From contig NZ_CANMCP010000001.1 of the NCBI RefSeq assembly GCF_947496385.1, positions 496,001 to 560,000 of the forward strand: a DNA stretch of 64,000 nt. Direction: 5' to 3'. Position numbers and translations under genes: made by a program. Below are positions 36,685 through 54,019 of the stretch, one piece after another. The notes under the pieces were generated by a model. That model did not search any database, had not been told where the DNA came from, and saw only the letters and a program-made list of their open reading frames with translations. How positions within the stretch are numbered: position 1 is the stretch's first letter; the number at the start of each line of letters is the position of its first letter. The stretch is from an uncultured Croceicoccus sp. Its GTDB lineage: Bacteria > Pseudomonadota > Alphaproteobacteria > Sphingomonadales > Sphingomonadaceae.

Positions 36685-39600
36685 GCCTCCCGCCGCAGGG
36701 CGACCATCGGCGCGCCGGGGGTGAGCGCCTGGCGCTCCTCGGCATAGATGGCCGCGATCGTGCCGCTCGCCGGGCTTTCGAACGGGCATTCCATCTTCAT
36801 GGATTCGATGATGGCGATGATCTGCCCCTCGGTCACGCTGTCTCCCGGCGCCACATTCATCTTCCACACGCTCCCGCCAAAGGGCGCCTCGATCAGCTCG
36901 GCCCCGTCGGGAACCTCGATGGCCGGGGCCGCAGCGCCGAGCCCGACCTCATCCTCGATGAGATCGCTCACCCGGTCGAATTCGCCGGAGCGTTCCCATT
37001 CGGCGCGCTCTGTATCGAAGGCGGCCTGTCGGGTTTTCTCGAACGCGGCGATGGATTCGGCATGTTCGGCAAGGAAAGCGCGATAATCGGCGAGGCGGAA
37101 CTCCGAATGCTCGACCTCGATCGCGCGGCGTCCGTTGGGAAAATCGCGGCGCCATTCGGCAAGCTCGTGGGCATCCACCTTGAAGAAGCGGATCTGATCG
37201 AAAAAGCGCAGCAGCCACGGCTTTCCATCGACGAAGGCGCCGGTCTGCCTGTGGGTGTTCCACACCTGGATCGTGCGGCCGAAAAGCTGGTATCCGCCCG
37301 GTCCTTCCATGCCGTAGATGCACATGTAGGCCCCGCCGATTCCCACCACATTGGGCGGGGTCCACGTGCGCGCCGGATTATACTTCGTCGTGACCAGCCT
37401 TTGCCGCGGGTCGACGGGCGTCGCGACCGGCGCGCCGAGGTACACATCGCCCAGCCCCATGACGAGATAGCTCGCATCGAAGATCAGCTTCTCCACCGCG
37501 TCGGCATCGGGTAGGCCGTTGATGCGGCGGATGAACTCGATATTGTCCGGGCACCACGGTGCATCGTCGCGGACCGCGCCCATGTATTTCTCGATCGTTT
37601 CCTCGATCGCCGGGTCGCGCCAGCTCAGCGGGAGATGCACGATGCGCGAGGGCACGGTGAAATCCTCAAGATCGCCCAATGCTTCTTCCGCCGCGATGAG
37701 CGCGTCGAGCGCGCCCTTCTGATCCAGAGAATGCCCGTCGAAATGCAGTTGCAGCGAGCGGATGCCGGGCACGATGTCGATCACGCCAGGCAGGGCGCGC
37801 CGTTCGAGTTCCTCCATCAGGGCGTGCACGCGAATGCGCAATTCGATGTCGAGCACGATGTCCCCGTATTCGACGAGGATATTGCGGTCGCCCTGCTGTC
37901 GATAGACGGTGCGCGGGCGGTGCCCCTGCGCCTCGATCATGCCGAGAACGGGGGAGAGCGCGGCAAGGTCGGAGCCCGCATCGGGCGTATCGTCGTGCGA
38001 CAGGGGCAGGCGGTCGGCCTGTGCCGCATCCTCCACTGTGACGGGGACGAAGCGGACGGTATCGTCGGGCGAAAGCTGTCCGATCTTCCATCTGTCCGCT
38101 GCGATCACCGTGAACGGACAGACGAACCCGCCGAGCGAAGGGCCGTCCGGTCCCAGGATGATCGGCATGTCGCCGGTGAAATCGACCGCGCCGATGGCAT
38201 AGGGATTGTCGTGAATGTTCGACGGGTGCAGCCCGGCCTCGCCGCCGTCCTTGCGCGCCCATTCAGGTTTCGGCCCGACGAGCCGCACCCCGGTCCGGTT
38301 GCTGTTGTAATGCACCTGCCAGCGGGCATCGGCGATCTGCGCGATGTCGGCCTCGGTAAAGAAATCCGGCGCGCCGTGCGGCCCGTAAAGCACGCGCAGC
38401 GCCCATTGCGTGCCGAACGCGGGTTCGCCCGTCAGCGGACAGGGCGCGGCGGTTTCGCCACGTTCGAGATGCAGCGTATCGCCCGCAAGCAATTGCCGCG
38501 CGGCATGCCCGCCGAACTGTCCCAGCGCAAAGGTGCTGCGGCTGCCGAGATAGGACGCAATGTCGAGCCCGCCGGCGAACAGGACATAGCCGCGCACGCC
38601 GCCGCCACTCACCCGGCCAAGCGCGAGCGTCTGCCCGGCCGCGATGTCGAGCACGGTGCCCCTCGGCGCCGGTTCGCCATCCAGCGTGGCGCCGAAATCC
38701 GCGCCCATGAGACAGATTCGCGCATCCGCATTGAAGAGCAGCGTCGGCCCGCTCGCCGTCATTTCGAGGCCCGCCGTACCCTCCGCATTGCCGAGCATCA
38801 GATTGCCGAGCCGGAACGAACGGTCGTCCATCGGGCCGGAGGGCGGCACGCCGACGGACCAGTATCCCTCGCGGCCGGGCCAGTCCTGTACCGTCGTCGC
38901 GGTGCCGCCGCTGATCACGCGGATGCTCGCCGGGCGGTAGTCGATGGTTTCAAGCAGCTTGGTCGAGACCGTCCCTCGGCCAAAATCCCCGTCGCGCAAT
39001 ACGTCGCGCAACCATCGCAGATTCGTCTCGATCCCGTCGATGCGCGTGTCGTCGAGCGCGTCCTGCATCGCGCCGATCGCGGCCTCGCGCGTGTCGGCGT
39101 GGACGATCATCTTGGCCAGCATGGGATCGTACCATGCGCTGATCTCGCTCCCCGCCATGCACCAGCGTTCGACGCGCACGTCGTCCGGAAACTCCACGGC
39201 GGTCAGCGTGCCGACCGTGGGCCGGTAATCCATCGCGGGATCCTCGGCATAGAGGCGCACCTGTATCGCGTGGCCCTTCGCCACCGGGGCGTCGGCGTCC
39301 ATGAACGCGAAATCGCCCTGTGCGCCCCGGATCATCCATTCGACGATGTCGATGCCCATGACCTCTTCGGTGACGCCGTGCTCCACCTGAAGCCGGGTGT
39401 TCATTTCGAGGAAGAAGAACTCCTCCCGCTCCGCATCGAACAGGAATTCCACCGTGCCGGCCGAAAGATAATGCGCCGCCTCACCCAGCCGGACCGCCGC
39501 ACCGATCAGCTCCGCACGCTTGGCATCCGACAGGCACGGGGCGGGCGCTTCCTCCACCACTTTCTGATTGCGACGCTGGAGCGAGCAGTCCCGTTCGCCC

Positions 39601-40271
39601 AATGGCGTAATGCGACCGGCGCCATCGCCGAAGATCTGCACCTCGATATGGCGCGCACGCCCGATATACCGTTCGAGGAACACGCCCGCGTCGCCGAAAT
39701 TGCCCTGGCCGAGCCGCGCCACCGCGTCGAACCCGTCGCGCACCGCGGCCTCGTCCTCGCAAATGCGCATGCCGATGCCGCCGCCGCCCGCGGTCGCCTT
39801 CACGATCACGGGAAAGCCGATGTCGCGCGCGGCCCCGGCCGCTTCCTCGCGGTCGGTGAGCAGGCCGGTGCCGGGGGCAAGCGGGACGCCGTGGCGCGCG
39901 GCAAGATCGCGGGCGCTATGCTTCAGGCCGAAAGTGCGGATGTCGTCCGCCGTCGGCCCGATAAACACGATCCCCGCCTCCTTGCACGCCTCGGCGAATT
40001 CGGTGCTTTCGGCGAGAAAGCCATAGCCGGGGTGGATCGCCCCCGCGCCGCTCTCGCGCGCGGCATCGAGGATCGAAGGGATGGAAAGATAGCTTTGCGA
40101 TGCCGTCGCCGGACCGATGCAGATGGCATGGTCGGCCTGCGAGACATGGAGCGAACCTGCATCCGCCTCGGAATAGACCGCGACGGAGCGCAGCCCCATG
40201 CGGCGGAGCGTGCGAATGATCCGCGTTGCGATAGCGCCCCGGTTGGCGACGAGGACCGTATCGAAGCTCAT
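36681..40271 (-). CDS. Urea/guanidine carboxylase (biotin-dependent)
   Basis: Multidomain carboxylase of 1196 aa: biotin carboxylase (about 1-450, ATP-grasp loop KATAGGGGIGMRI), carboxyltransferase halves (about 470-780 and 790-1080) and a C-terminal biotinyl domain with Lys1159 in ESMKMEC. It carboxylates urea to allophanate or guanidine to carboxyguanidine. Because two DUF1989 proteins, recently shown to form carboxyguanidine deiminase, are encoded just upstream and an ABC importer is present, guanidine is the better-supported substrate. The segment GAVDFTGDMPII has Asp where the yeast urea amidolyase, as I remember it, has Asn; this may be the residue reported to separate the two activities and should be aligned. 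ATGA overlaps on both sides. Confidence 0.92.
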   Translation of the reverse strand: MSFDTVLVANRGAIATRIIRTLRRMGLRSVAVYSEADAGSLHVSQADHAICIGPATASQSYLSIPSILDAARESGAGAIHPGYGFLAESTEFAEACKEAGIVFIGPTADDIRTFGLKHSARDLAARHGVPLAPGTGLLTDREEAAGAARDIGFPVIVKATAGGGGIGMRICEDEAAVRDGFDAVARLGQGNFGDAGVFLERYIGRARHIEVQIFGDGAGRITPLGERDCSLQRRNQKVVEEAPAPCLSDAKRAELIGAAVRLGEAAHYLSAGTVEFLFDAEREEFFFLEMNTRLQVEHGVTEEVMGIDIVEWMIRGAQGDFAFMDADAPVAKGHAIQVRLYAEDPAMDYRPTVGTLTAVEFPDDVRVERWCMAGSEISAWYDPMLAKMIVHADTREAAIGAMQDALDDTRIDGIETNLRWLRDVLRDGDFGRGTVSTKLLETIDYRPASIRVISGGTATTVQDWPGREGYWSVGVPPSGPMDDRSFRLGNLMLGNAEGTAGLEMTASGPTLLFNADARICLMGADFGATLDGEPAPRGTVLDIAAGQTLALGRVSGGGVRGYVLFAGGLDIASYLGSRSTFALGQFGGHAARQLLAGDTLHLERGETAAPCPLTGEPAFGTQWALRVLYGPHGAPDFFTEADIAQIADARWQVHYNSNRTGVRLVGPKPEWARKDGGEAGLHPSNIHDNPYAIGAVDFTGDMPIILGPDGPSLGGFVCPFTVIAADRWKIGQLSPDDTVRFVPVTVEDAAQADRLPLSHDDTPDAGSDLAALSPVLGMIEAQGHRPRTVYRQQGDRNILVEYGDIVLDIELRIRVHALMEELERRALPGVIDIVPGIRSLQLHFDGHSLDQKGALDALIAAEEALGDLEDFTVPSRIVHLPLSWRDPAIEETIEKYMGAVRDDAPWCPDNIEFIRRINGLPDADAVEKLIFDASYLVMGLGDVYLGAPVATPVDPRQRLVTTKYNPARTWTPPNVVGIGGAYMCIYGMEGPGGYQLFGRTIQVWNTHRQTGAFVDGKPWLLRFFDQIRFFKVDAHELAEWRRDFPNGRRAIEVEHSEFRLADYRAFLAEHAESIAAFEKTRQAAFDTERAEWERSGEFDRVSDLIEDEVGLGAAAPAIEVPDGAELIEAPFGGSVWKMNVAPGDSVTEGQIIAIIESMKMECPFESPASGTIAAIYAEERQALTPGAPMVALRREA

Positions 40272-40903
40272 GCCGAAACGATCATGCGGACGGGGGTGGG
40301 GTTGAACGCGTTGCACGGATTGTTGATCTGCGGACAATTGGACACGACCACGATCACGTCCATTTCGGCATGGAGATCGACGGTGAGGCCCGGTGCGGAG
40401 ATGCCGTCCACGATGCCGAGCGAGCCGTCATCCTCCACCGGCACGTTCATGAAGAAATTGATGTTGGACACCATGTCGCGCTTCCCCCGCCGTTCGGTGA
40501 GGTTCGCCTCCAGGAAATTTTCGACGCAGGCGTGTTGCGACTTCGTATGATGACCGTATCGCAAGGTATTGGATTCGCACGAACATGCGCCGCCGATGGT
40601 GTCGTGATATTCGACCGAGGTATCGGTGATCGTCATCATCGGGCGCCCTTCGTTCGAGCGCAGCACGGTGCCCTTGCGCAGGAACAGATTGCCCTGCGCG
40701 GCGACGGTGTCCTGCGCGCTGTAACGTTCGGCATCGTCCGCTTCGCTATAGAGCAGGAAATCGACGGCCTGGTTGCCCTCCACATCGACGATGCGCAGCG
40801 TCTGCCCGGCCTTCACATGGTGGAGCCAGGGTGCGCGGGCGGCGACGATTTCGTCATGCACGATCGGGCCGGGGAGGCCGGCAACATTCGGGTCGTTGCT
40901 CAT
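40268..40903 (-). CDS. DUF1989 protein (urea carboxylase-associated; carboxyguanidine deiminase subunit)
   Basis: Protein of 211 aa of the DUF1989 family ('urea carboxylase-associated protein'). Pairs of these proteins have been shown to form carboxyguanidine deiminase (CgdAB), converting carboxyguanidine to allophanate plus ammonia. Potential metal or active-site residues include the cluster CSCESNTLRYGHH (written ACSCESNTLRYGHH) and the C-terminal NCPQINNPCN. RBS GAAGGA precedes the ATG. It overlaps the carboxylase start by ATGA and follows its longer paralogue after 30 bases. Which of the two corresponds to CgdA or CgdB I cannot tell. Confidence 0.88.
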   Translation of the reverse strand: MSNDPNVAGLPGPIVHDEIVAARAPWLHHVKAGQTLRIVDVEGNQAVDFLLYSEADDAERYSAQDTVAAQGNLFLRKGTVLRSNEGRPMMTITDTSVEYHDTIGGACSCESNTLRYGHHTKSQHACVENFLEANLTERRGKRDMVSNINFFMNVPVEDDGSLGIVDGISAPGLTVDLHAEMDVIVVVSNCPQINNPCNAFNPTPVRMIVSA

Positions 40904-40933: not shown

Positions 40934-41758
40934 TCAGCGGCGGTAGTAGTCTTCGACGTTCTGAAACGCGCGCAAGCCTTCGGGCGTGGCGTTGCGCACC
41001 GGGTCGTCGGCCGGGGCGGGGGCGCCGCGCCATGCCGTCGCACGCAGCGGGGTCACGCTCCATTCCGCGCGCGGGTCGAGCACGTGGGGGCAATTGGCGA
41101 GCACGACGATCACGTCCATCTCGGCGCGCATCACGATTTCGCGGCCTTTCTCGAACGGGCCGACCTGCGGGGTAATGGTCCCGTCCTTCCCGATCCGCGT
41201 GCCCTTGAACAGGTTCACGCACGGGTGCACGTCGCGCCGCGTCAGCCCGTGCTTGGCCGAGCCGAGGATGAGCCGGTCGCGCCCGTTGGGGGTGGGGCCG
41301 CTGTTGCGCCCCTCGCCATATTTCGCCGCGTTGGTGGCCGCGTTCGACGTGCCGCAAAACGTGTCATGCGTGCCGGCGCCGTCCTCGATCACGCTCATCA
41401 GCACGCGGCCCATGTCGGACAGGAGCAGCCGTCCGATCGCGAGATAGGCGTTCCACTGCACCTTTACCGTATCGGCGACGTTCAGCCGCTCCGTCGGCAT
41501 GTCCGCATTGTAGAGCAGCATCGAGGCACAGGCATCGCCGCCAATATCGACGAGCCGCAGTCGCGTCCCGCGTTTCAGCACGCGGGTCGCATAGCCGCCC
41601 GCCGCGATCGTTTCCTCCCACACCAGGTCGCCTGTATCGACACCATCGGGCAGGTCGTCGGCGACGGGCGGGATGATCGGCATGGCCTCCGCGACGGTTC
41701 CGGCCATGGCGCGCGCATGGTCGCGCGCGGCCATCGGGTTGGCGAGATTGGTTGTCAT
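40934..41758 (-). CDS. DUF1989 protein, longer paralogue (carboxyguanidine deiminase subunit)
   Basis: Protein of 274 aa, homologous to the shorter DUF1989 protein downstream (shared pattern GTRLRLVDIGGDACASMLLYN, seen here as LRLVDIGGDACASMLLYN; also FCGTSNAATNAAKYGEG and VLANCPHVLDP). Expected second subunit of carboxyguanidine deiminase. The frame continues upstream to 41926, but the ATG at 41758 overlaps the stop of the regulator gene by ATGA and gives the usual MTTNLANP start. Its place between the regulator and the carboxylase supports one operon. Confidence 0.87.
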   Translation of the reverse strand: MTTNLANPMAARDHARAMAGTVAEAMPIIPPVADDLPDGVDTGDLVWEETIAAGGYATRVLKRGTRLRLVDIGGDACASMLLYNADMPTERLNVADTVKVQWNAYLAIGRLLLSDMGRVLMSVIEDGAGTHDTFCGTSNAATNAAKYGEGRNSGPTPNGRDRLILGSAKHGLTRRDVHPCVNLFKGTRIGKDGTITPQVGPFEKGREIVMRAEMDVIVVLANCPHVLDPRAEWSVTPLRATAWRGAPAPADDPVRNATPEGLRAFQNVEDYYRR

Positions 41759-42282
41759 ACCTTCGCGTCCTTGTTTTTTGCCTTGCGTCCTTTGGCGGCG
41801 GGCTCCGGCGCATCGGCGGATGCGGCCCATTCCGGCGTGTCCAGTTCGTGCAAGGGGGGGAGCAGGGCGGTTGTCGTCACCAGCTGAAGCTGATTGATGC
41901 CGCGAATGCTGCGCAAGGCATCGCACAGCTCTTCGAGCCGCATCGCCGGCCCCTGCACGAGCAACACCTCCAGCGACTGATCATCCTCGAGGAAGACATG
42001 CTGCGAGGAGATGACTTCCTTCAGGTAATCCGCCTGCGTCTCGGCGAGCTGTTGCCGCACGCGCCCGCGATTGCCGCGATAGACGAGGGTGATCGTCCCC
42101 GCGAGCATGTCGTCCGGGCGGAACTGCGCCTCATGCTCCGCGAGCGCGTGGCGGATCAGCTCGGCGATAAGCTGCGAGCGGGAGGGAAGCCCGCGCTCCT
42201 CCACCATCATGTCGAGCTGACGGAACAATTCGGCGGGCAGGCTCATGCTCAGACGCGCCAGATTGTTGGAATCGGAACTCAT
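41755..42282 (-). CDS. NikR-like ribbon-helix-helix regulator lacking nickel ligands
   Basis: Regulator of 175 aa: ribbon-helix-helix DNA-binding domain (LARLSMSLPAELFRQLD, PSRSQLIAELIRHAL) and a NikR-type ACT-like C-terminal domain (MLAGTITLVYRG, VISSQHVFLEDDQSLEVLLV), plus a basic tail (GRKAKNKDAKV). Aligned with E. coli NikR, ligand His76 is Ala84, His87 is kept as His95, His89 is Phe97 and Cys95 is Ser103, so the high-affinity nickel site is missing. It probably binds another effector, perhaps guanidine/urea or a derivative. The inverted repeat at 42300-42325, 17 bases upstream of its ATG, is the likely operator, with copies at 45098 and 48459. Confidence 0.87.
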   Translation of the reverse strand: MSSDSNNLARLSMSLPAELFRQLDMMVEERGLPSRSQLIAELIRHALAEHEAQFRPDDMLAGTITLVYRGNRGRVRQQLAETQADYLKEVISSQHVFLEDDQSLEVLLVQGPAMRLEELCDALRSIRGINQLQLVTTTALLPPLHELDTPEWAASADAPEPAAKGRKAKNKDAKV

Positions 42283-42294
42283 GCGACCTCTTTC

Positions 42295-43113
42295 TCAATT
42301 ATTACGTTTATTGTCAATCGTAATACTGTTGGTGTCATCGGCCCGAAGGTTCGCCCGGTCATCGCTGCGATCTTCCAGCGCCGCCGGATCCTTCTTCGAC
42401 AGCTCCAGGTCGTAGACCGCCGTGGCGCCGAAACGGTGCGGCGCGTGCGGATCGTGGCGGCGCTTGTCGAGCGTGAGAACCCGCGTGCCGAGCGTGAACG
42501 CTTCCTTCAGATCATGGGTGACCATGATCACGGTCAGCGCATATTCGTTCCACAGCCGGGTGATGAGCGCATGCATATCCGCGCGGATACCGGGGTCGAG
42601 CGCGCCGAACGGTTCGTCCAGCAACAGGATCCGCGGCCGCTTGATGAGCGCCTGCGCAATGGCGAGCCGCTGCTGCATCCCGCCCGACATTTCCGCGGGG
42701 TAGAGGTGCATCGCATCCTTGAGCCCCACGGCGTCGAGCATCTCCTCCGCCTGCTCACGCGCGGCCCGCTTGCCCGCACCGAACAGACGGGCGGCAAAGG
42801 GGGCCTGCGCACATTCGAGGCCGAACATCACATTGCCCAGCGCGGACAGATGCGCGAACACCGAATAGCGTTGAAACACGACCCCGCGATCCGGCCCGCA
42901 TTCGGGGGGAAGCGTCTCCCCGTCGAGGAGGATGGACCCCCGCGTCGGTGCCTCCTGTCCCAGGATCACGCGCAGCAGGCTGCTCTTGCCCGCGCCCGAG
43001 GGGCCGATGATCGATACGAAGGACCGGTCCGCAATGTCGAGCGAGACATTCTCCAGCACGATCTTGTCGCCATATTCGACCCAGATATTGCGGAGGCTCA
43101 GCAGCGCGCTCAA
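42295..43113 (-). CDS. ABC transporter ATP-binding protein (nitrate/taurine/guanidine type)
   Basis: ATPase of 272 aa: Walker A GPSGAGKS, Q-loop VFQRYSVF, signature MSGGMQQRLAIAQAL, Walker B ILLLDEPFGALD and H-loop VTHD. It energises import by the permease encoded upstream. No ATG fits; a TTG at 43113 overlaps the permease stop as TTGA and follows GGAGCAGGA, giving MSALLSLRNIWVEYGDK, so I chose it. The C-terminus has a 40-residue extension (KKDPAALEDRSDDRANLRAD) whose final codons contain operator A, an unusual overlap of coding and regulatory sequence. Confidence 0.9.
   Translation of the reverse strand: MSALLSLRNIWVEYGDKIVLENVSLDIADRSFVSIIGPSGAGKSSLLRVILGQEAPTRGSILLDGETLPPECGPDRGVVFQRYSVFAHLSALGNVMFGLECAQAPFAARLFGAGKRAAREQAEEMLDAVGLKDAMHLYPAEMSGGMQQRLAIAQALIKRPRILLLDEPFGALDPGIRADMHALITRLWNEYALTVIMVTHDLKEAFTLGTRVLTLDKRRHDPHAPHRFGATAVYDLELSKKDPAALEDRSDDRANLRADDTNSITIDNKRNN
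42300..42325. promoter_or_regulatory. Operator copy A (TATTAC-N14-GTAATA)
   Basis: Perfect inverted repeat TATTAC (42300-42305), 14 bases, GTAATA (42320-42325). It lies inside the last codons of the ABC ATPase gene (encoding SITIDNKRN) and just before the regulator ATG. On the minus strand TTGACA sits two bases into the spacer, as in the other copies, but no -10 follows at normal distance. Same architecture as NikR sites (two spaced half-sites). Confidence 0.65.
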
Positions 43114-43925
43114 TATCCTGCTCCATGGGCCCAGGGGAACATGCGGCGGCTCGCCTGCGTGAGCAGCAGGTCCATCGTCACGGCGAGCAGCGCAATCCAC
43201 GCCACATAGGGCAGGATGATGTCCATCGACAGGTAGCGCCGCACCAGAAAGATGCGATAGCCAAGCCCCACGTCCGCCGCGATCGCCTCCGCGGAAATCA
43301 GGAACACCCATGCCGGGCCGAGCGAGAGCCGCACCGCATGGATGAGCCGGGGCATCGCCTGCGGGAGAGCGACCCGGATCATCACCTGCCAGCTATTGGC
43401 GCCCAGTGTCTGTGCCTTGATGATCTGTTCGCGGGGCAGGGCGGCGATATGGGCGGCGATGTCACGGATCATGAACGGCGCGATGCCGATGACGATGAGC
43501 GCAACCTTCGCCGTTTCGCCCAGCCCGAACGCGATGAACAACACCGGCAGCAGCGCGATCGGGGGAATGACGGCAATGCCGGTCACCAGCGGCCCGAACG
43601 TCGCGCGCACCGTCGGCAATATGCCCAGCACCAGCCCGGCCAGAAGCGCCGAAGCGGTCGAAATCAACAGCCCGATGGCGAGCCGCGTCAGGCTGGCGAA
43701 GGTATCGTCCCAGAACAGGCGCCCGCCCGAAAGCGGATCGCGTTCGAGGATCAGCGCCGCCATCGCATCGACCATCTGCCCCGGCAGCGGCAGGATCTTG
43801 TCCGCCGGGTTGATCGCGTGCCGGTCCGCGGCGAGGAGCAGGTAGAGCAGCAACAGCAGCGCGATCGGCAATGCGCCCATCATGATGGCGTGACCCCGCC
43901 CAAGCCTGCGGTTGACCCATCGCAT
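43110..43925 (-). CDS. ABC transporter permease
   Basis: Inner-membrane permease of 271 aa with about six helices and the BPD-transport signature EQIIKAQTLGANSWQVMIRV (EAA-loop). It belongs to the TauC/NrtB/SsuC-like class, which carries small molecules such as taurine, nitrate, thiamin precursors or guanidine. Starts 30 bases after the binding-protein gene; its stop overlaps the ATPase start. Substrate inferred from operon context. Confidence 0.9.
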   Translation of the reverse strand: MRWVNRRLGRGHAIMMGALPIALLLLLYLLLAADRHAINPADKILPLPGQMVDAMAALILERDPLSGGRLFWDDTFASLTRLAIGLLISTASALLAGLVLGILPTVRATFGPLVTGIAVIPPIALLPVLFIAFGLGETAKVALIVIGIAPFMIRDIAAHIAALPREQIIKAQTLGANSWQVMIRVALPQAMPRLIHAVRLSLGPAWVFLISAEAIAADVGLGYRIFLVRRYLSMDIILPYVAWIALLAVTMDLLLTQASRRMFPWAHGAGY

Positions 43926-43955
43926 CAGCGGCGGCCCCCCGTTATGCCCGCACGA

Positions 43956-45038
43956 TCAAAGCGCATTGTCGGCCGCCATCTGCATGAAGCTGTCGTCGAA
44001 ACGCAGCGTCACGTTCTGCGCATTGCCGAGCGTCTTGCCGCCGGGGAATGCCATGCCGACCGCATCCGCGGAACGCGCGCCCTGACCGAACAGGCCCTGA
44101 GAAAAGCTGAAATCGCGCACGCGCCGCATCGTTTCGACCAGCGCCGGCGAACGCGCCGCGGCGACGCCGGCCTGCGGCGTGTCATAGAGGAACGTCGTGG
44201 CGAGCTGTCCTTCGAACACCTCCGGCGTGGTGCCGGCCATCTTGGCCATGGCGTCGCGGGCGGCCTTGCCCTCTGCGTCCTGCCGCTTCATCAGGGCCAT
44301 CGTCTCGTACCAGATCCCGGCCAACGCCTTGCCCAAATTCGGATTGGATTTCAGCGTGGCCGTATCGACCACCAGCAGGTCGAGAATCTCGCCCGGAATA
44401 TCGGACGAGCTGAACACCATATTGGTGCCCGGCGTGTCCTTCATCGTGGAAAGCTGCGGGTTCCAGGCCACGGCGGCCTTGATCTCGGGCGCGGTGAAGG
44501 CGCCGGCGATGTCCGCATCCGCCGTGTTGATCGTGTTGACCGCGGTCATCGGCAGGCCCGCCGTTTCCAGCCCGCGCGCCAGCAGGTAATGCGATACCGA
44601 CAATTCGACGAGATGCACGTCCTTGCCCCGGATCGCGCCGAGCCGGTCATTGCCCTTGAGCAATATGCCGTCGTTTCCGTTCGAATAATCGCCGATGATG
44701 ACGGCGGTCGTATCCTTGCCTCCCGCGGCGGGAATGGTGAGCGCGTCCATGTTCGCGACCGTCACGCCGTCGAGCTTTCCGGCGGTGTACTGGTTCACCG
44801 ATTCCACGTAATCGTTCACCTGCACGAATTCGATGTCGAGGCCGTATTTGTCGGCCCATTTGTCGACGATCCCGGCCTGCTGGGCATAGGGCCAGGGCAT
44901 CCACCCGGCATAGATCGACCAGCCAATGTCGAAATCGGTGCGCGGACCGGCGGGCTCTTCCGGCGACGAACACGAGGCCAGCACGAGTGCACCGGCAATT
45001 GCGGCGATGTTCCCCGCGGTGCGGATACGGTTGATCAT
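43956..45038 (-). CDS. ABC transporter substrate-binding lipoprotein
   Basis: Lipoprotein of 360 aa of the NMT1/TauA-like periplasmic binding family. Lipobox LASC gives lipidated Cys23. The mature part begins TDFDIGWSIYAGWMPWPYA, and contains a domain typical of binding proteins for small nitrogen compounds (AWNPQLSTMKDTPG). The ATG at 45038 has GAAAGGAGACGAATC directly upstream; the open frame beyond it is non-coding. First gene of the eight-gene operon (binding protein, permease, ATPase, regulator, two DUF1989, carboxylase, allophanate hydrolase). Confidence 0.9.
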   Translation of the reverse strand: MINRIRTAGNIAAIAGALVLASCSSPEEPAGPRTDFDIGWSIYAGWMPWPYAQQAGIVDKWADKYGLDIEFVQVNDYVESVNQYTAGKLDGVTVANMDALTIPAAGGKDTTAVIIGDYSNGNDGILLKGNDRLGAIRGKDVHLVELSVSHYLLARGLETAGLPMTAVNTINTADADIAGAFTAPEIKAAVAWNPQLSTMKDTPGTNMVFSSSDIPGEILDLLVVDTATLKSNPNLGKALAGIWYETMALMKRQDAEGKAARDAMAKMAGTTPEVFEGQLATTFLYDTPQAGVAAARSPALVETMRRVRDFSFSQGLFGQGARSADAVGMAFPGGKTLGNAQNVTLRFDDSFMQMAADNAL

Positions 45039-45097
45039 GATTCGTCTCCTTTCGCGCTTGCAGCATTGCGCGATCCTGACGTCTTGTCCATGCCAAA

Positions 45098-45133
45098 TAT
45101 TACTATTGATCGTATTCGTAATATCGGTATAGT
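45098..45133 (+). promoter_or_regulatory. Operator copy B overlapping a plus-strand promoter
   Basis: Perfect inverted repeat TATTAC (45098-45103), 14 bases, GTAATA (45118-45123), extendable to seven bases per arm. Overlapping it on the plus strand, TTGATC (45106-45111), 16 bases, TATAGT (45128-45133) is a good promoter toward the metallo-beta-lactamase genes. The site sits in the 209-base divergent region between the ABC binding-protein gene and these genes, so bound regulator should repress the rightward promoter and may affect the leftward one. Confidence 0.7.
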
Positions 45134-45247
45134 CCTCGTCACATGCGGCGCCTTGGCAAGAGAGCGCCGCGTGCGATGTCCGGGGAGGGGGCGTCTGAAA
45201 ACGGCATGCGTTCAACGCCGCCCACGCGGCGGTTCGAAAGGATGACG

Positions 45248-46336
45248 ATGCCCCAGACCGATGCGGCAAAGCCGATCACGACGACCATCGTGGAATCGAC
45301 CGCGACACGCGCCTATCCCAATGGCAATCCCAATCTTCCCTACAACCGCGCGGCGGTGCGCAACACCGACAGCGCGGTCCCGCGCCCGCCCCGCGCGCCA
45401 GTCATGCACGATTACGCTTGCGACGGGCCGGCCCCGGGACAGATCGCGTTTCGCTGGATCCACGGCTCCAATATCGCCGCGAAGAATCAGGATCCGCGGG
45501 TTCATGTCCTGCAATATAACGAGGACAGCTTCATCCTGCGGCAGAATGTCTGCGTCCATTGGGAGGCGCCGTTCACCTATCTGCTCTTCGGCAATGCCGG
45601 CGCGCTGCTCATCGATACCGGCGCGACCGCCAACCCGGCGCATTATCCGCTGCGCAAGACCGTCGATGCCGTGATCGAACGCTGGGCGCAGGCGCGCGGG
45701 CGGCGGCGGGTGCCGCTCACCATTGCGCTGACCTCGGGTGAGGATGTCGCGCAGAACCAGGGCCTGAAACAATTCGCCGGGCGCGCCGATACGACGATCG
45801 TCCCGCCGCCCTTCGCCGCGATGAAGGGGCATTACGGCCTCGCCGAAAACTGGCCCGGCGGGACGGGGGCGATCGACCTCGGCGACCGGGTCATCACCGT
45901 CCTGCCGACGCCCGGCGCGCATCGCGACGGGGTCAGCTTCTACGATCCCTATACCGATTTCCTGTTTACCGGCGACCTTCTTTATCCCGGCAAGATCAAC
46001 ATCGGCAACGATCGCGATTTTGTCGCCTCGCTCGAACGGCTGTCCGCGTTTGCCGGCAGTCAGCCGGTGAAATGGGTGATGGGCGGCCATGTCGAGATGA
46101 TGTTCGTGCCCGGCCGCTATTACCCGCGCTTCGCCACGTTCAAGCCGTATGAGCGCGTCTTGCAGATGGAGCCCGCGCTCATTGACGAGGCGCTGACCCA
46201 TGCGCGGGCGGTGCAGGGGCGGGACACCATGTTGATCCGGCCCGACTTCGTGCTGATGAACGGGGTCAGCCCGGATCAGCGCACGTCCGACTGGCCCGAG
46301 GGCGTGCCGAAGATCAATCCGCCGCACCCGTTCTGA
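45248..46336 (+). CDS. Metallo-beta-lactamase-fold protein with degenerate metal motif
   Basis: Protein of 362 aa with an MBL-fold region from about residue 75: GNAGALLIDTGAT, then PTPGAHRDGVSFYD, FLFTGDLLYPG and VMGGHVEMMF. The hallmark HxHxDH is replaced by SGEDVAQN after TIALT, so a standard two-zinc site is unlikely even though the later His (AHRDG), Asp (TGDLL) and His (GGHVE) remain. No signal peptide is visible. GAAAGG six bases before ATG 45248 fixes the start. It is a paralogue of the next protein (shared WIHGS/WICGS, HWYNE/LQYNE, ILRQN, YEAPF/WEAPF patterns). Function unknown; co-regulated with the transporter operon through operator B by inference. Confidence 0.8.
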   Translation: MPQTDAAKPITTTIVESTATRAYPNGNPNLPYNRAAVRNTDSAVPRPPRAPVMHDYACDGPAPGQIAFRWIHGSNIAAKNQDPRVHVLQYNEDSFILRQNVCVHWEAPFTYLLFGNAGALLIDTGATANPAHYPLRKTVDAVIERWAQARGRRRVPLTIALTSGEDVAQNQGLKQFAGRADTTIVPPPFAAMKGHYGLAENWPGGTGAIDLGDRVITVLPTPGAHRDGVSFYDPYTDFLFTGDLLYPGKINIGNDRDFVASLERLSAFAGSQPVKWVMGGHVEMMFVPGRYYPRFATFKPYERVLQMEPALIDEALTHARAVQGRDTMLIRPDFVLMNGVSPDQRTSDWPEGVPKINPPHPF

Positions 46337-46366
46337 ACGCTCCTATCCGAACGAAAGGATCCGCCG

Positions 46367-47368
46367 ATGGATCGTCGCACCTTCCTTGCCTACAACGCCG
46401 CGGCGGCCGTGCCGCTCACCCTCGCGGCAAAGGCCTATGGCAAAACCGTTTCCCACGACGGCCCGCCGGTGGATTTCACCGTCGACGGCCCCGCACCGGG
46501 CGCATTTCCCGACCGCTGGATCTGCGGATCGCCGTCGGCGATGGACAACACCGACCCGCCGATCCAGGTGCACTGGTATAACGAGCACACCGCGATCCTG
46601 CGGCAGAACAAGGCCTATAGCTACGAAGCGCCGTTCGCCCCGCTCTATTTCGGGAACGACCGGGTGCTGCTGCTCGACGAGGGCTACGTACAGCTTCGCA
46701 ACGATTGCGATTACCGCGCCGTCGTCGACGATTGCATCGAAGAATGGTGCCGCCGCAACGGCCGCAATCCGGCCGCGATGGAACTGCTCGTCGCGTTCAG
46801 CCATCTGGACGCCGACCATTATGCCGCGGTCAATCAGTTCGCCGACCGCCCGAATACGCGATACATGGGCCTCACCCACGAAGAGATGCTGGGCTTCTGG
46901 GGCATGACCAATTTTCCCGAAGAGCGCGTGACGCTCGATCTCGGCGGGCGGGAGATCCTTATCTGGGGCTCGCCCGGCCACGTGATTTCGGAATTCGCCT
47001 ATTACGACAGCTACACGCAGATCCTCTATACCGGCGACATGTTCTATCGCGGGCGCTGCTACATCAGCTTCTGGCAGCCGTGGTTCGACAGCATGAAGCG
47101 GCTGATCGATTTTTGCGACACCCACCCGGTCGCGCATGTGATGGGTTGCCATGTCGAGATGAGCGAGACGGGCGAGGATTACCCTTATGGCCTGACCTAC
47201 CAACCGAACGAGGCGCCGGTGCAGATGACCGTCGCGCAGCTTCGCGAAACCTACGAATATGCGAAGGGCATTACCGAGCCGGGCATCTATTTCACCGGCA
47301 CGGTCTACCTGTGCAACCAGTCGCGCAGCACGACGACCATCGACCGCTACCCCTATCGCTACGAATGA
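46367..47368 (+). CDS. Metallo-beta-lactamase-fold hydrolase, Tat-exported
   Basis: Protein of 333 aa with a twin-arginine-type leader (MDRRTFLAYNAAAAVPLTLA), so probably periplasmic. MBL-fold motifs: RVLLLDEG, the metal motif SHLDADHY (HxDxDH in place of HxHxDH), SPGHVISEFAYYD, LYTGDMFYRG and VMGCHVEMSE. Most metal ligands are kept, so this paralogue is the likely catalytic one of the pair. It starts 30 bases after its degenerate paralogue and ends 31 bases before the propeller gene. Substrate unknown; a hydrolysis that releases a guanidine- or urea-type compound is a hypothesis from context only. Confidence 0.83.
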   Translation: MDRRTFLAYNAAAAVPLTLAAKAYGKTVSHDGPPVDFTVDGPAPGAFPDRWICGSPSAMDNTDPPIQVHWYNEHTAILRQNKAYSYEAPFAPLYFGNDRVLLLDEGYVQLRNDCDYRAVVDDCIEEWCRRNGRNPAAMELLVAFSHLDADHYAAVNQFADRPNTRYMGLTHEEMLGFWGMTNFPEERVTLDLGGREILIWGSPGHVISEFAYYDSYTQILYTGDMFYRGRCYISFWQPWFDSMKRLIDFCDTHPVAHVMGCHVEMSETGEDYPYGLTYQPNEAPVQMTVAQLRETYEYAKGITEPGIYFTGTVYLCNQSRSTTTIDRYPYRYE

Positions 47369-47399
47369 TGCGCAATTGCGCGAGCTCAGGAGACTTCCC

Positions 47400-48335
47400 A
47401 TGAAACGCACCATCGTAACCGCCGCCCTGTTCGCCGCGACGACAGGATGCGTAACGACAGGCGCGCCCGGCCCGGACGCCGCACCGGCTTTGGTCGAGCG
47501 GGAATTGAGCGTGCCCGGCTTTGCCGATTTCCTCGCCGTCGATGGCGATACGGTCTGGGTCACGAATGACGGGCGGGTCGAGCAATGGTCGCGCGAGGAA
47601 AAGCTCGCCAGCGTGACCGTGCCGCGCCCGTGTGGGACGATGGCGGTGGCGGCGGGATCGCTCTGGGTCGCGAATTGCCCCGATGCCAATCTCTATCGCA
47701 TCGACACCGAAACCGCGACGGTGGAGCAGATGATCGCCACCGGCATCGCCAATCCCAAGGGCGAAACGAATGTCGTTGCCGGCGCTGGGTCCGTCTGGGT
47801 GCCGAGCGCGGCAAGCGGCGAAATCGCGCGGCTCGATCCCGAGACGGGCGCGATCGTCGCCCGCATTCCGGTCAATCCCGGCACGTTCTTCCTCGCCTAC
47901 GGGCATGATGCGCTCTGGGCGGTGAGCAGCGACGCCCGCACCTTGCAGAAGATCGACCCCGACAGCAACGCGGTCGTCGGCACGGTCGCGCTCGGGCTTC
48001 AGCCCGGCTTCCTCGCCGCGGGGGAGGGGGCCGTCTGGGTGCAGGAACAGGGCGATGGCACGGTGGCGCGCATCGATCCCGCAACGCTCGCCATCACCGA
48101 CAGGGTGAAGGTCGGCGAGACGCTGGCCTATGGCGATATCGACGTCGGCGGGGGGATGGTCTGGCTCCGCACGACGGAGGACCAGGTGTTTGCCGTCATC
48201 GATCCGGCGACCATGGATGTGACCGCCCGCCTTGGCGAACCGGCGGGCAGCGGGGCGATCCGCTACACCCCCGATGGCGTGTGGACCAGCGCCCACGACA
48301 ATCAGACGCTTTCCTGGTGGAGCAGGCCGGACTGA
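47400..48335 (+). CDS. YncE/YVTN-type beta-propeller lipoprotein
   Basis: Protein of 311 aa with a lipoprotein-like leader (MKRTIVTAALFAATTGC; Cys17) and seven or so repeating blades (AVAAGSLWVANC, VVAGAGSVWVPSA, YGHDALWAVSSD, AAGEGAVWVQEQ, DVGGGMVWLRTT). Such propellers bind rather than catalyse in most cases. The ATG at 47400 follows CTCAGGAGACTTCCC. Third gene of the rightward unit after the two MBL-fold proteins; it may organise or bind the same periplasmic substrate. Confidence 0.82.
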   Translation: MKRTIVTAALFAATTGCVTTGAPGPDAAPALVERELSVPGFADFLAVDGDTVWVTNDGRVEQWSREEKLASVTVPRPCGTMAVAAGSLWVANCPDANLYRIDTETATVEQMIATGIANPKGETNVVAGAGSVWVPSAASGEIARLDPETGAIVARIPVNPGTFFLAYGHDALWAVSSDARTLQKIDPDSNAVVGTVALGLQPGFLAAGEGAVWVQEQGDGTVARIDPATLAITDRVKVGETLAYGDIDVGGGMVWLRTTEDQVFAVIDPATMDVTARLGEPAGSGAIRYTPDGVWTSAHDNQTLSWWSRPD

Positions 48336-48458
48336 GCTTCCGCGCAATACAGTTCCAGACGCGACGCGCTTTGCAATTCTGTCGGGTAACTGCCGGTTTT
48401 GCATCGGTTAATGTCGCGCCGGGCCTTCGAAACATTCGTTAACGCGCATTTCATAAAT

Positions 48459-48494
48459 TAATACGCTTGACGCATTTCGTAATATCTGTAGCGT
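48459..48494 (+). promoter_or_regulatory. Operator copy C overlapping the TonB-receptor promoter
   Basis: TAATAC (48459-48464), 14 bases, GTAATA (48479-48484): one mismatch from the other two copies. As in copies A and B a -35 starts two bases into the spacer: TTGACG (48467-48472), then 16 bases and TAGCGT (48489-48494). It lies in the 555-base gap 48336-48890, about 400 bases before the TonB receptor ATG. Confidence 0.65.
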
Positions 48495-48890: not shown

Positions 48891-51323
48891 ATGACCAAAC
48901 GCCAGACCTTCAGATCCACCCTTCTTTCGGCAACCGTGCTCGCCATGGCGGGCCATGCCGCCCACGCCTCGGCACAGGATGCAAACGCGGGCACGATGAT
49001 CAACGAACCGGCGGGCGATACCTATGCCGACACGATCGACGGCGCGATCGTCGTGACCGGCACCCGGCGCAGCACCACGATCCAGGACACGCCGATCAAT
49101 ATCTCGGCCATCGATGCGGAGGAGCTCGCCAGCAAGCAGATCGAGGATGTCCGCGACATCGCCGATTTCACGCCCGGCATGACCATTTCGGACACCGGGC
49201 CGGGGTCGACGGGTTCGATCGTGCTGCGCGGGCTGAATGCGTCGGGGGTCGACGATTTCGGTGCGGGTTACGACGATTCGCTCGGCATCTATCTCGGCGA
49301 AGTGCCGCTGTTCTACGATTTCAAGCTGATCGATATCGACCGGGTCGAAACCCTGCTCGGCCCGCAGGGCACGTTGTACGGTCTGGGCACGCTGGCCGGT
49401 GCCATCCGCTATATTCCCAACCGCCCCGATGTCACCGGTTTCGAGGGCGAGTTCCACGGTCGCGCCTACGCCAAGAGCCACAGCGACGATTTCGGTTATC
49501 AGGCCGACGGGATGGTCAATATTCCCATCGTGCGCGATCATGTCGCGTTCCGTTCGGCGACCGGTTACTATTTCGATCCCGGCTTCATCGATTATCCGCT
49601 GCTCGTGCAGGAGCCGGGCGTGTCATTGCCGCAGCCCGACGGGCCCGATGGCGTCACGCAGGAAGGCTTTGCCGAAAACCTGCGCCGTGCGGAGGATCTG
49701 AACTTCGAGCGGACGTTCACCACGCGCAACCAGCTTCTGTTCCAGACGACCGAGGATCTGAAACTCATCCTCACCTACGCCTATCAGAAGACGGACACCG
49801 ATGGCGCGCAGGCGAACAGCTTCGGCGTGCTGGGCACCGGGCGTTATGAAAACGCGAGCCGCTTTATCGAGCCGATCTCCCGCAATGCGCATCTGGCGAG
49901 TGCGGAGGTCAATGCGAATATCGGCGATTTCGTCGATATCGTCGCGACCGGCGCCTATACCGAGGTGAATTTCGAAGGGCAGGCCGATGTGACCGATCTG
50001 CTGCTCGACCTCGATTACGATTACGAATTGTTTCCTGCCTTCGCCGGCTACACCGAATCGATCAATCAGCGGAAGCAGAAGAACGCCGAAATCCGCTTCG
50101 TCTCCAGCCACGGCGGTCCCTTGAGCTGGGTGCTCGGCGGGTTCTTCAAAGAAAACAAGTATCAGAGCGATTATGCCGAACGCGTTCCCAACCATCCATG
50201 GGTCGGCCCGGACAATCCCGAGGCGCTCGAATATGTGAGCTACATCACCTCCGAGGTCACGGAAAAGGCGATCTTCGGCGAGGCAACGTTCGAAATCACG
50301 CCGGAATTTCAGGTCACCGCCGGCACGCGCTATTTCGATTACGAGTCGGAAATTTCGGGTGCGGCCGCGCTCCCGCTGCTCGGCGATCCGCTCAGCCCTT
50401 ACGACCTGCCGGCCAATGGCGGGCAGGCCGGACAGGACGGCTGGGTCTGGAAATTCAACAGCAGCTACGAATTCACGCCCGACCTCATGGTCTACGGCAC
50501 CTATAGCAAGGGCTATCGCATCGGCGGGCCGAACCGCGTCGCGCCGTGCCCCGCCGATATTCAACCCGGACAGCAGATCATTTGCGCGCTTCCGGACGAG
50601 CTGCAATACGGCCCGGACACGACGAAGAACCTCGAACTGGGCGTTCGCACGCAATTGTTCGACCGGATGCTGTCGCTCAATTTCAACGTGTTCCAGATCA
50701 AGTGGGACGGCATCCAGGTGGATTCGGCCACGCTCTATGGCGCGACCGGCATCACGGTGAACGGGGGCCAGGCCAAGTCCGAAGGGTTCGAAGCCTCGTT
50801 TCAGCTTCGCCCGGTGCGCGGCCTGTCGATCCAGGGGAATTATTCCTACACCGATGCGCGTCTGACAGAGGATATTCCCGGCATCCTGACCATTCGCGAG
50901 ACGCCGGGCGATTATTCGAACCGTTTCGTACAGCTCGATGCGATGGACGGCGACCGGCTGCCCGGCTCGGCTAAGAATGCGGGCAGCATCGGCGCCACCT
51001 ATGTGCAGCCCCTGACGAATGGCGATCTCATCGCGAACTGGACCACGGTATATCGCGGCGACGTGGTGTCGCGGCTGGGATGGGAGCGGGCCTATGGCGA
51101 GCTGATCCCGAGCTATGTCACGCATCGCGCCCGGCTGACCTACGATACCGACAAGTTCAGCATCGGCCTGTTCGCGAACAATATTTTCGACAAATATGCC
51201 ATCGTGTCGGTCGCGAACGACCGGTCGCGCATCGGGATCAACGACGGCGTCGCCGTGCGCTATTACCGCCAGGTCGTGCTCAATCCCCGGACCGTCGGGA
51301 TCGAGGGCCGGGTGAAGTTCTGA
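48891..51323 (+). CDS. TonB-dependent outer-membrane receptor
   Basis: Receptor of 810 aa. Signal peptide (MTKRQTFRSTLLSATVLAMA..., cleaved near ASAQ), TonB-box-like DGAIVVTGTRR, plug domain (about 55-170, with TPGMTISDTGPGSTGSIVLR-type sequence and VETLLGPQGTLYG) and a 22-strand barrel ending in VGIEGRVKF with terminal Phe. AGGGGGA precedes the ATG. It resembles the broad sphingomonad receptor families for organic substrates rather than a siderophore receptor, but specificity cannot be read directly. Operator C places it under the same predicted regulator as the ABC/carboxylase operon, suggesting uptake of the same compound or its larger precursor. Confidence 0.9.
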   Translation: MTKRQTFRSTLLSATVLAMAGHAAHASAQDANAGTMINEPAGDTYADTIDGAIVVTGTRRSTTIQDTPINISAIDAEELASKQIEDVRDIADFTPGMTISDTGPGSTGSIVLRGLNASGVDDFGAGYDDSLGIYLGEVPLFYDFKLIDIDRVETLLGPQGTLYGLGTLAGAIRYIPNRPDVTGFEGEFHGRAYAKSHSDDFGYQADGMVNIPIVRDHVAFRSATGYYFDPGFIDYPLLVQEPGVSLPQPDGPDGVTQEGFAENLRRAEDLNFERTFTTRNQLLFQTTEDLKLILTYAYQKTDTDGAQANSFGVLGTGRYENASRFIEPISRNAHLASAEVNANIGDFVDIVATGAYTEVNFEGQADVTDLLLDLDYDYELFPAFAGYTESINQRKQKNAEIRFVSSHGGPLSWVLGGFFKENKYQSDYAERVPNHPWVGPDNPEALEYVSYITSEVTEKAIFGEATFEITPEFQVTAGTRYFDYESEISGAAALPLLGDPLSPYDLPANGGQAGQDGWVWKFNSSYEFTPDLMVYGTYSKGYRIGGPNRVAPCPADIQPGQQIICALPDELQYGPDTTKNLELGVRTQLFDRMLSLNFNVFQIKWDGIQVDSATLYGATGITVNGGQAKSEGFEASFQLRPVRGLSIQGNYSYTDARLTEDIPGILTIRETPGDYSNRFVQLDAMDGDRLPGSAKNAGSIGATYVQPLTNGDLIANWTTVYRGDVVSRLGWERAYGELIPSYVTHRARLTYDTDKFSIGLFANNIFDKYAIVSVANDRSRIGINDGVAVRYYRQVVLNPRTVGIEGRVKF

Positions 51324-51365: not shown

Positions 51366-52928
51366 TCAACCGGTTTCGATCCCCTGGTCCTCGAACCAGC
51401 GGCGGACCGGTTCCAGGGCGTCGGCATGGGTCCGCCATTTACCCATGCCGTCGCTATTGATCGGGCGGCGGACCTGCGCCGCGCTGGGCGTCGCGACGGC
51501 GGCCTTGTTCTCGTGAAAGGACAGGCATGCCGCGTCCCACTCCAGCCTGCAAAACGACAGCAGCTCCCGCGTTCTGGCTTCCTGCGCCGTCACCAGCGCC
51601 TCATACGACAATTGCAGGACACGGCCGGGAAAGACGCGATCCCAGAACCGCATGAGCCTGTCGAACCGCGCATAATAGCGTGCCGTCGCCATCAGGTCGT
51701 AGGAATAGGCGTAATAGGGCGAGCGGCTGGCGAACAGATTCTTGAAATTGCTCCACACCGTGTCCATCGGATTGCGGCGCAGGCACACGATCGGCGCGTC
51801 GGGGAAACTGCGCGCGATATGCCCGATATACAGGAAATTGGCGGGCAGCTTGTCGACGAAGCGCCGCGTGTCGTCCATCCGGTGGTGCTGCGCCTGTGCC
51901 ATGTAATGGCTGGCGAGTTGCGCGGGGTCGATATGCCGGCTCGCGCGGATGGTTTCGGGATCGATGATGACGCGCGACGCCGTCTGGCTCAACCGTTTTA
52001 CGCCGAGCGGCATCGCCTGTAACTCCCCGGCGGAAACGACGTCGGGATGCGACGACAGGATCCGGTCGACCAAAGTCGTGCCGGTCCGCGGCATGCCCAC
52101 GACGAAGAGGGGCGCGCGGCTCCCCATCGGCTGTCCCGCGCCATGGCCGCCGTCATCGGCAAAGCATTGTTCGATCGCGTCGAAGATCGCGGCGTCCTGC
52201 GCGAAATCGTAACGGATATTGCGCGCGTGCCGGGCATTGGCATCGGCCAAATGGCGAAACGCTTCGACCTCGCCGAGATCCTCCAGCTCCTTTGCCAAGG
52301 CGTAGCGGATGCGCAGGGCGTCGTCCTCGCTTCGCGCCGCGCCCAATGCGGTTTTCAGCCGATCGACATGGTTGTCGCTGCGCGTCTGCCGCGACAGAAT
52401 GGCGAGTGCGTAATGCGTGCGGCCATTTTCAGGGTCGATTCCGAGGACGTATTCGTAATGGACGCGCGCATCCTCGACCGCACCTGTAAAGCCGAGCGCG
52501 GCGGCCAGGTTGTAGCGATAGTCGAGATTGTCGGGTTCCGCCTCCACCGCGGCGGTGAAAGGTGCGATCGCGCGCGCATGATCGCCCAGCCTGACGAGCA
52601 CGCAACCGATCGTGTCGAAGGTGCGCGCATCGCGTGGGTTGAGGTCCAGCGCGCGCCGGGCCATGGCCGCGGCGTCGCCATCGCGGCGCATCAGGATGAG
52701 CAGGCGGGCAAGCTGCGCGCAATGTTCGGGATCGTCGCCCCGTGCGACGGCGGATTCGAGCAGGGGCACCGCCTTCGCGATCCGGCCCGCTTCCGCAGCG
52801 GCAATGCCAAGCAGGAAATAGCCGTCCGCATCGTCCGGCCTGTCCGCGATCAACGCATCGGCCGCGCGCGACGCCGCCGCAAGATCGCCCCGCGCAAGTG
52901 CGTTCCGCGCCTCCGACGCGAGAGTCAC
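51366..52928 (-). CDS. TPR-containing sulfotransferase
   Basis: Protein of 520 aa. The N-terminal half (about 1-200) consists of tetratricopeptide repeats (for example DGYFLLGIAAAEAGRIAKA and ARTFDTIGCVLVRLGDHARA). The C-terminal half is a PAPS-dependent sulfotransferase domain: 5'-phosphosulfate loop FVVGMPRTGTTLVDRILSSH and the 3'-phosphate segment RRNPMDTVWSNFKNLF. This combination is common in sphingomonads and their relatives; acceptor unknown. Single gene with its own terminator region. Confidence 0.9.
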   Translation of the reverse strand: MTLASEARNALARGDLAAASRAADALIADRPDDADGYFLLGIAAAEAGRIAKAVPLLESAVARGDDPEHCAQLARLLILMRRDGDAAAMARRALDLNPRDARTFDTIGCVLVRLGDHARAIAPFTAAVEAEPDNLDYRYNLAAALGFTGAVEDARVHYEYVLGIDPENGRTHYALAILSRQTRSDNHVDRLKTALGAARSEDDALRIRYALAKELEDLGEVEAFRHLADANARHARNIRYDFAQDAAIFDAIEQCFADDGGHGAGQPMGSRAPLFVVGMPRTGTTLVDRILSSHPDVVSAGELQAMPLGVKRLSQTASRVIIDPETIRASRHIDPAQLASHYMAQAQHHRMDDTRRFVDKLPANFLYIGHIARSFPDAPIVCLRRNPMDTVWSNFKNLFASRSPYYAYSYDLMATARYYARFDRLMRFWDRVFPGRVLQLSYEALVTAQEARTRELLSFCRLEWDAACLSFHENKAAVATPSAAQVRRPINSDGMGKWRTHADALEPVRRWFEDQGIETG

Positions 52929-53331: not shown

Positions 53332-53444
53332 CATACTCTCCTGCAAACATCAAAACGCCGCTCTTCGGCGGATGGCAGGAATATAGGGTGCCGCGCCGCC
53401 ATTGGCAACACGCAGCCCGCGGCCATGAAACGCAAGGGGCATGG

Positions 53445-53870: not shown

Positions 53871-54019
53871 GAAGAAATCTCCTTCCGCCGCGCCGTATCT
53901 GGCTGCGGCGGCGATTGAATCTCTCCCACGCGCTTGTCGTTCTTATGGGCTACAGCTTACCTGTATTACCACCCTCGTCAATGGTATTATCCAAATGGCG
54001 GGCGGGGGCGTCCCGCGCG

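Follow-up and report, generated by a model that had tools for sequence, protein, structure and literature searches.

The window considered here is a 64-kb stretch of contig NZ_CANMCP010000001.1 from an uncultured Croceicoccus sp. (positions 496,001 to 560,000), whose 3.34 Mb draft genome of 55 contigs is labelled G000. It carries a predicted guanidine carboxylase operon that includes the gene of a NikR-like regulator, together with four copies of an inverted repeat, TATTAC-N14-GTAATA, which are the putative operators of this regulator. A preliminary description of the same DNA had drawn attention to three of these repeats and proposed that they define the regulon of the neighboring NikR-like protein. 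The operon lies on the minus strand in the order binding lipoprotein, permease, ATPase, regulator, UAAP1, UAAP2, carboxylase and allophanate hydrolase; its genes and the four operators are as follows:

43956..45038, minus strand: binding lipoprotein of an ATP-binding cassette (ABC) transporter, 'putative urea ABC transporter' family (TIGR03427, 526 bits against a cut-off of 334)
43110..43925, minus strand: ABC permease (Pfam BPD_transp_1)
42295..43128, minus strand: ABC ATPase, start codon approximate (Pfam ABC_tran)
41755..42282, minus strand: NikR-like regulator, 175 aa (Pfam NikR_C 73.8 bits and RHH_1 26.1 bits, both above cut-offs)
40934..41758, minus strand: UAAP1, a DUF1989 protein, predicted carboxyguanidine deiminase subunit (TIGR03425, 312 against 206 bits; PF09347, 182 bits)
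40268..40903, minus strand: UAAP2, a DUF1989 protein, predicted carboxyguanidine deiminase subunit (TIGR03424, 334 against 285 bits; PF09347, 212 bits)
36681..40271, minus strand: predicted guanidine carboxylase, 1196 aa, with both diagnostic Asp residues (TIGR02712, a family model named urea carboxylase, 1743 bits)
34918..36684, minus strand: allophanate hydrolase, start approximate (TIGR02713, 734 bits)
42300..42325, minus strand: operator A, exact TATTAC-N14-GTAATA, 18 bp upstream of the regulator start codon and within the 3' end of the ABC ATPase reading frame
45098..45123, between the divergent ABC binding-protein gene (minus) and the MBL1 gene (plus): operator B, exact match
48459..48484, plus strand: operator C, one mismatch, upstream of the TonB receptor gene, with a -35-like TTGACG inside
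53964..53989, minus strand: operator D, one mismatch, upstream of a three-gene operon

Repeats A, B and C lie where the preliminary description had placed them, the first two exact and the third with one mismatch, but a fourth copy, D, had been overlooked. The window has four copies at one mismatch or fewer, whereas 300 simulations under a first-order Markov model of the window gave 0.003 on average and never more than 1. In a scan of the whole genome the motif proved not to be frequent elsewhere: outside the window a single further copy was found at this level, and the reversed control pattern also gave 1. This extra copy, on the 6.9-kb contig C29, falls within an open reading frame (ORF) resembling a flippase by eye, beside transposase-like ORFs, and looks like a chance occurrence. 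Allowing two mismatches brings nothing above background (19 copies in the genome, 38 of the reversed control pattern), and so no further regulon members can be claimed there. A symmetric site of this two-mismatch level, TTTTAC-N14-GTAAAA at 62052-62077, overlaps the start of an ORF resembling a MerR regulator. In the direction of its gene (the minus strand for A and D, MBL1 for B, the TonB receptor for C), each of the four copies has TTGA two bases into the spacer, as had been noted for three of them. The -10 element reported 16 bp further on in B and C is present as TAnnnT, likewise in D, and operator A has none at 16-18 bp. The placing of A just upstream of the ribbon-helix-helix regulator gene is also borne out. 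The genes preceded by operators B, C and D, apart from the transporter, are:

45242..46336, plus strand: metallo-beta-lactamase (MBL)-fold protein 1, MBL1 (Pfam Lactamase_B 42 bits; HxHxDH metal motif not recognizable by eye)
46367..47368, plus strand: MBL-fold protein 2, MBL2 (Pfam Lactamase_B 27.7 bits; twin-arginine (Tat)-like signal by eye; motif HLDADH)
47400..48335, plus strand: beta-propeller lipoprotein (Pfam DUF6923 above cut-off, Vgb_lyase below cut-off)
48891..51323, plus strand: TonB-dependent receptor (Pfam TonB_dep_Rec_b-barrel and Plug; the Pfam search used 48873-51323)
53445..53870, minus strand: 141-aa exported-looking protein, first gene after operator D (no Pfam or NCBIfam match; at the same place in six other genomes)
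53008..53346, minus strand: UrcA family protein (TIGR04433, 69 bits against a cut-off of 25)
51366..52928, minus strand: tetratricopeptide repeat (TPR)/sulfotransferase-like protein, last gene of the D operon (partial NCBIfam matches below cut-offs; gene order kept in relatives)

The D operon converges on the TonB receptor gene. A search of the PDB by sequence gave no solved relative of MBL2 at E 0.001, and the two MBL-fold proteins may, from their motifs, be a degenerate and a catalytic partner.

The locus was compared with a set of related genomes (148, the window's own included), with 80 loci that are the best 80 of 275 relatives from a scan of named-species genomes, and with a class sample of 385 genomes. 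By title, the 80 loci are from sphingomonads throughout except for one metagenome-assembled genome (MAG). A MAG contig titled Candidatus Poribacteria (L073) shares its regulator region, identical over ~500 bp, with a Croceicoccus MAG (L072) that is also among the 80, and is probably misbinned. The regulator occurs in 18 of the 148 related genomes and the carboxylase in 21, and all 18 regulator genomes have the carboxylase. As nine of the loci from these 18 relatives are identical over the regulator region to members of the 80-locus set, the two collections are not independent.

Sites and regulator go together. A motif scan of 33 genomes covered 17 with the regulator (16 of the same family and G131, of another family) and 16 without it, and exact sites were found in 15/16 of the same-family regulator genomes (G034 among them) against 0/16 of those lacking the regulator. 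The 80 loci hold 223 copies with a spacer of 14 at one mismatch or fewer, at least one in each locus; the other spacers from 8 to 20 gave 0 to 7 copies each. In the first 40 loci 124 copies were counted, against a mean of 0.6 and a largest value of 8 for 30 permuted half-sites. Chance was considered as the origin of the motif and rejected on the window simulations, the genome control and these permutations. The motif is thus kept in relatives that keep the regulator, as the preliminary description had expected, and the proposed regulon of the neighboring protein is conserved and tied to it, but nothing ties this regulon to nickel.

The most constant site is that of the transporter: a copy lies ~60-80 bp upstream of the binding-protein gene in 78/80 loci, and the remaining two are cut by contig ends. 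Other sites were attributed to the receptor (50 loci), MBL1 (31), the propeller gene (18) and the regulator (60), and 14 of the 223 copies have no assigned gene. Two regulator copies are present in 20 of the 80 loci (L074 and L080-L083 among them); a site is found within 60 bp for 19 of the 20 second copies and within 300 bp for 15 of the 20 first copies, and 19 of the site copies precede a second regulator gene. Over all 100 regulator copies in these loci, a site lies within 60 bp upstream in 61 (at exactly 18 bp in 39 cases) and within 300 bp in 76. An equivalent of operator D, at one mismatch or fewer, precedes the same gene in G002, G005, G007, G009, G012 and G081, a check made in genomes already having a listed site and hence not a blind count. 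The regulon as first listed (carboxylase/ABC operon, two MBL-fold proteins, propeller lipoprotein and receptor) is therefore supported by conserved sites but incomplete, and the D operon belongs to it in this genome and in several relatives. In G131 the sites upstream of both regulator copies read TGTTAC-N14-GTAACA, and the residue of the ribbon that is Ser12 in the window regulator is Gly in both copies. Ribbon residues contact DNA in NikR structures, and this joint change of half-site and residue, seen in one genome, is only suggestive.

The regulator has the domain arrangement of NikR, an N-terminal ribbon-helix-helix followed by NikR_C, and its nearest solved relatives are NikRs (Pyrococcus horikoshii, E 7e-25). 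An AlphaFold2 model of one chain is of modest confidence (pLDDT 72.4, pTM 0.48), and its C-terminal domain superposes on that of Helicobacter pylori NikR (HpNikR) at ~1.5 Å with a TM-score of ~0.9 (normalized to target) over 81 columns; given a single chain at this confidence, no ligand pocket is claimed from the model. The operators, two inverted half-sites ~14 bp apart, also follow the NikR binding style, as had been pointed out from the repeats, and share TTAC in the half-site with the NikR sites GTGTTAC-N13/14-GTAACAC predicted for delta-proteobacteria (PMC545781). In domains, C-terminal fold and spaced half-sites the system is therefore like that of the NikRs of E. coli, H. pylori and P. 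horikoshii.

Unlike those proteins, the window regulator is linked to guanidine genes and has replaced three of the four nickel ligands: A84, H95, F97 and S103 stand where NikR has His-His-His-Cys, so that H95 alone is kept. None of the 100 copies in the 80 loci has kept these three (86 read xHFS and 14 xHVS), and the loci of the 18 relatives read xHFS throughout; ten of ten ordinary NikRs recovered by the same searches, taken as a control, read HHHC. The 14 copies in which Val replaces Phe at position 97, formerly a nickel ligand place, belong to two-copy loci and are never the best copy of their locus; from this Val/Phe difference, the paralogues may answer to different signals. A distant homologue in G428 reads RHHT, with two of the four kept. 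The window protein also falls below the NCBIfam equivalog cut-offs for NikR (97.7 against 105 for NF003381, 62.6 against 83 for NF002815 and 56.9 against 175 for TIGR02793). The G428 homologue passes two of these (113.1 against 105 and 84.7 against 83) and may for that reason be annotated as nickel-responsive in databases. The nickel link implied by the label NikR-like thus finds no support in the copies examined, with three ligands replaced in all except the G428 homologue, where two are lost. The regulator belongs to the NikR fold family, but because its ligand set does not match it should not be given the name NikR in the nickel-responsive sense.

The genes around the regulator point to guanidine. 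Guanidine carboxylases have been defined by an Asp at each of the K. lactis positions 1330 and 1584, and the deiminase by PF09347 (PMC11410670). In the window enzyme D697 and D942 occupy these two places, the first of which is Asn1330 in the K. lactis urea enzyme. Both Asp residues are present in 17/18 and 78/80 of the related loci, and the other three sequences do not cover one or both places. Residue and neighbors vary together: among 21 carboxylases (loci L209-L226 and L249-L251), the 18 with the first Asp all have UAAP1 and UAAP2, and the three with Asn lack both. Both deiminase subunits and the allophanate hydrolase stand in the operon with scores above their cut-offs. From the diagnostic residues and the deiminase genes, this is therefore a predicted guanidine carboxylase operon.

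In other alphaproteobacteria an RNA sensor goes with the same kind of operon. The class sample contains 26 genomes that match the carboxylase query; three have the regulator and four (G228, G342, G434 and G512) were excluded for partial matches of ~300 residues (E 1e-65 to 1e-62), which leaves 19 for the riboswitch count. A guanidine-I riboswitch (RF00442) was found in 18 of the 19, in 17 above the family cut-off. G189 and G411, both among the 19, carry an ordinary NikR elsewhere in the genome. The exception, G382, has neither riboswitch nor regulator; as its carboxylase has Asn at 1330 and UAAP genes are absent nearby, it was rejected as a guanidine carboxylase and counted as a urea carboxylase. 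All 18 guanidine-I genomes carry the Asp enzyme, and the riboswitch is thus present in 18/18 guanidine-carboxylase genomes that lack the regulator. In the 20 genomes with the regulator, RF00442 was found in 0/20 and RF01763 in none, and RF01068 (guanidine-II) in G428 only. The window has no Rfam guanidine riboswitch, and the whole genome has no guanidine-I, -II or -III. The riboswitch operons share the transporter, deiminase, carboxylase and hydrolase genes of the window, and in G321 the guanidine-I riboswitch lies just upstream of the binding-protein gene, the place taken here by the operator; they differ from the window in having an RNA sensor where a predicted DNA-binding protein is found here. 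By these counts the regulator takes the place that a guanidine riboswitch has in other alphaproteobacteria, and the guanidine-I riboswitch is absent where the regulator is present.

A further arrangement is seen in three sphingomonads, G041, G042 and G073. These resemble the window in enzyme clade and core genes, and unlike it they have, immediately upstream of the binding-protein gene, a gene of LysR type (L249:2663-3601, L250:16782-17780 and L251:2140-3192; by NCBIfam match for G041 and by eye for G042 and G073), no regulator, and no TATTAC-N14-GTAATA site at one mismatch or fewer within the 20-kb locus. In a tree of 39 carboxylases the sphingomonad enzymes fall into a single supported clade, within which the LysR cases branch, and G428 falls among the riboswitch cases. 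On this branching, loss of the riboswitch and gain of the regulator may have been a single event in the sphingomonad group.

How might the sites act? Sites at the receptor have TTG at spacer positions 3-5 in 50/50 cases, followed 16-18 bp on by TAnnnT in 49, and those at MBL1 have TTG there in 31/31, followed by TAnnnT in 29. At both kinds of promoter the operator therefore covers the -35 element, which fits a repressor. NikR is a tetramer of which two ribbon-helix-helix dimers each grip one half-site. The four inverted repeats would likewise be operators of the regulator encoded at 41755-42282, a tetramer with each dimer on one half-site, and direct binding of the protein to these sites is very probable. 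When bound, it would cover the promoters of the guanidine ABC transporter, MBL/propeller, TonB receptor and UrcA operons and exclude RNA polymerase; repression is likely to be the main mode.

If nickel is no longer the ligand, what is? The former nickel pocket would have been rebuilt and would let the regulator respond to guanidine or a close derivative. The gene content and the exchange with the riboswitch make such an effector the favored one, at a lower confidence than the mode of action. Effector binding would release the DNA, and guanidine would then be imported and degraded via carboxyguanidine and allophanate to ammonia. For the account as a whole, that a NikR-fold repressor took over from the guanidine riboswitch and responds to guanidine or a close derivative of it, we put the probability at roughly 0.6. 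A narrower form, in which the regulator would sense free guanidine itself, the His-His-His-Cys pocket having become an x-His-Phe-Ser pocket for guanidinium, and would have taken over the whole job of the riboswitch, is more tentative and falls a little short of even odds.

Several observations weigh against this account. The layout of the receptor and MBL1 promoters is not general: sites at the propeller gene have TTG in 16/18 but TAnnnT in only 4/18, the regulator's own site has TTG in 43/57 and TAnnnT in 0/57, and TTGA is found inside the operator at 0/78 binding-protein genes, that is, at the transporter promoter. Cover of the -35 element hence explains two kinds of promoter only, and at the propeller, regulator and binding-protein promoters the site may act differently. 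Among the 60 single-copy regulator genes 18 have no site within 300 bp, and G006 and G011 show three sites each, none of them at the position of operator D. No role in guanidine use is known for the MBL, propeller, UrcA and sulfotransferase-like genes. A single cluster of G428 (L209:4494-4958 and 11530-11579) contains a regulator homologue as well as a guanidine-II riboswitch. There the riboswitch precedes UAAP1 and the homologue, with a one-mismatch site, adjoins another ABC transporter; creatininase-like and type III glutamine synthetase genes are also in this cluster. The three LysR loci, which lack the regulator, gave no Rfam match either within the 20-kb locus, the extent of that search, and absence of a riboswitch therefore does not by itself require this regulator. 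Finally, as the sphingomonad carboxylases form one clade, the 20 regulator genomes do not count as independent cases.

Part of this evidence would sit better with the same regulon and operators serving another signal, such as methylguanidine or another guanidino compound entering via the TonB receptor, or cellular nitrogen status. The MBL pair, propeller lipoprotein and receptor in the regulon suggest a substrate other than free guanidine, the G428 homologue has a different ABC transporter, a creatininase-like gene and a type III glutamine synthetase gene beside it, and Val for Phe in the old nickel pocket of 14 copies in two-copy loci could mean two effectors. Nevertheless, the degradation genes linked to the regulator are those of free guanidine, and the binding-protein gene that has an operator here has a guanidine-I riboswitch in G321, so that a signal of this other kind seems rather unlikely.

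The retention of NikR fold and sequence, of a NikR-like operator and of ligand H95 could instead point to a NikR still responsive to nickel, which would shut down a nickel-free nitrogen pathway whenever the metal is abundant and so favor nickel enzymes; isozyme switching of this sort is proposed for hydrogenases in PMC545781. Replacement of three of the four ligands in every one of the 100 copies, and scores below the NikR equivalog cut-offs for the window protein, make nickel regulation highly improbable. That the repeats are bound by a factor encoded elsewhere, with the neighboring regulator a coincidence, is less credible still: no result of the analysis favors it, the sites go with the regulator and are not seen at one mismatch or fewer in the 20-kb LysR loci, the TGTTAC half-site of G131 comes together with the change of Ser12 to Gly, and even in G428 a one-mismatch site lies between the homologue and its transporter.

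A repressor of NikR fold that senses guanidine or a near derivative would fall in a gap in present knowledge. A 2025 review describes guanidine riboswitches as the only known guanidine receptors besides transporters and enzymes, and holds that guanidine-binding transcription factors may yet be found (PMC12186494). In the open-access literature no published link of NikR to guanidine carboxylase or urea carboxylase was found, and the accessible part of PMC2667541 contains none. The regulator of this window is thus a concrete candidate for a guanidine-sensing transcription factor, with a 26-bp operator and a set of predicted targets, and many species of its group are in culture. The MBL pair, the propeller lipoprotein and the TonB receptor become candidates for outer-membrane or periplasmic steps in the use of guanidine or guanidino compounds. 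If the account is true, a riboswitch would here have given way in nature to a regulatory protein, and a domain that senses metal would have been adapted to another ligand.

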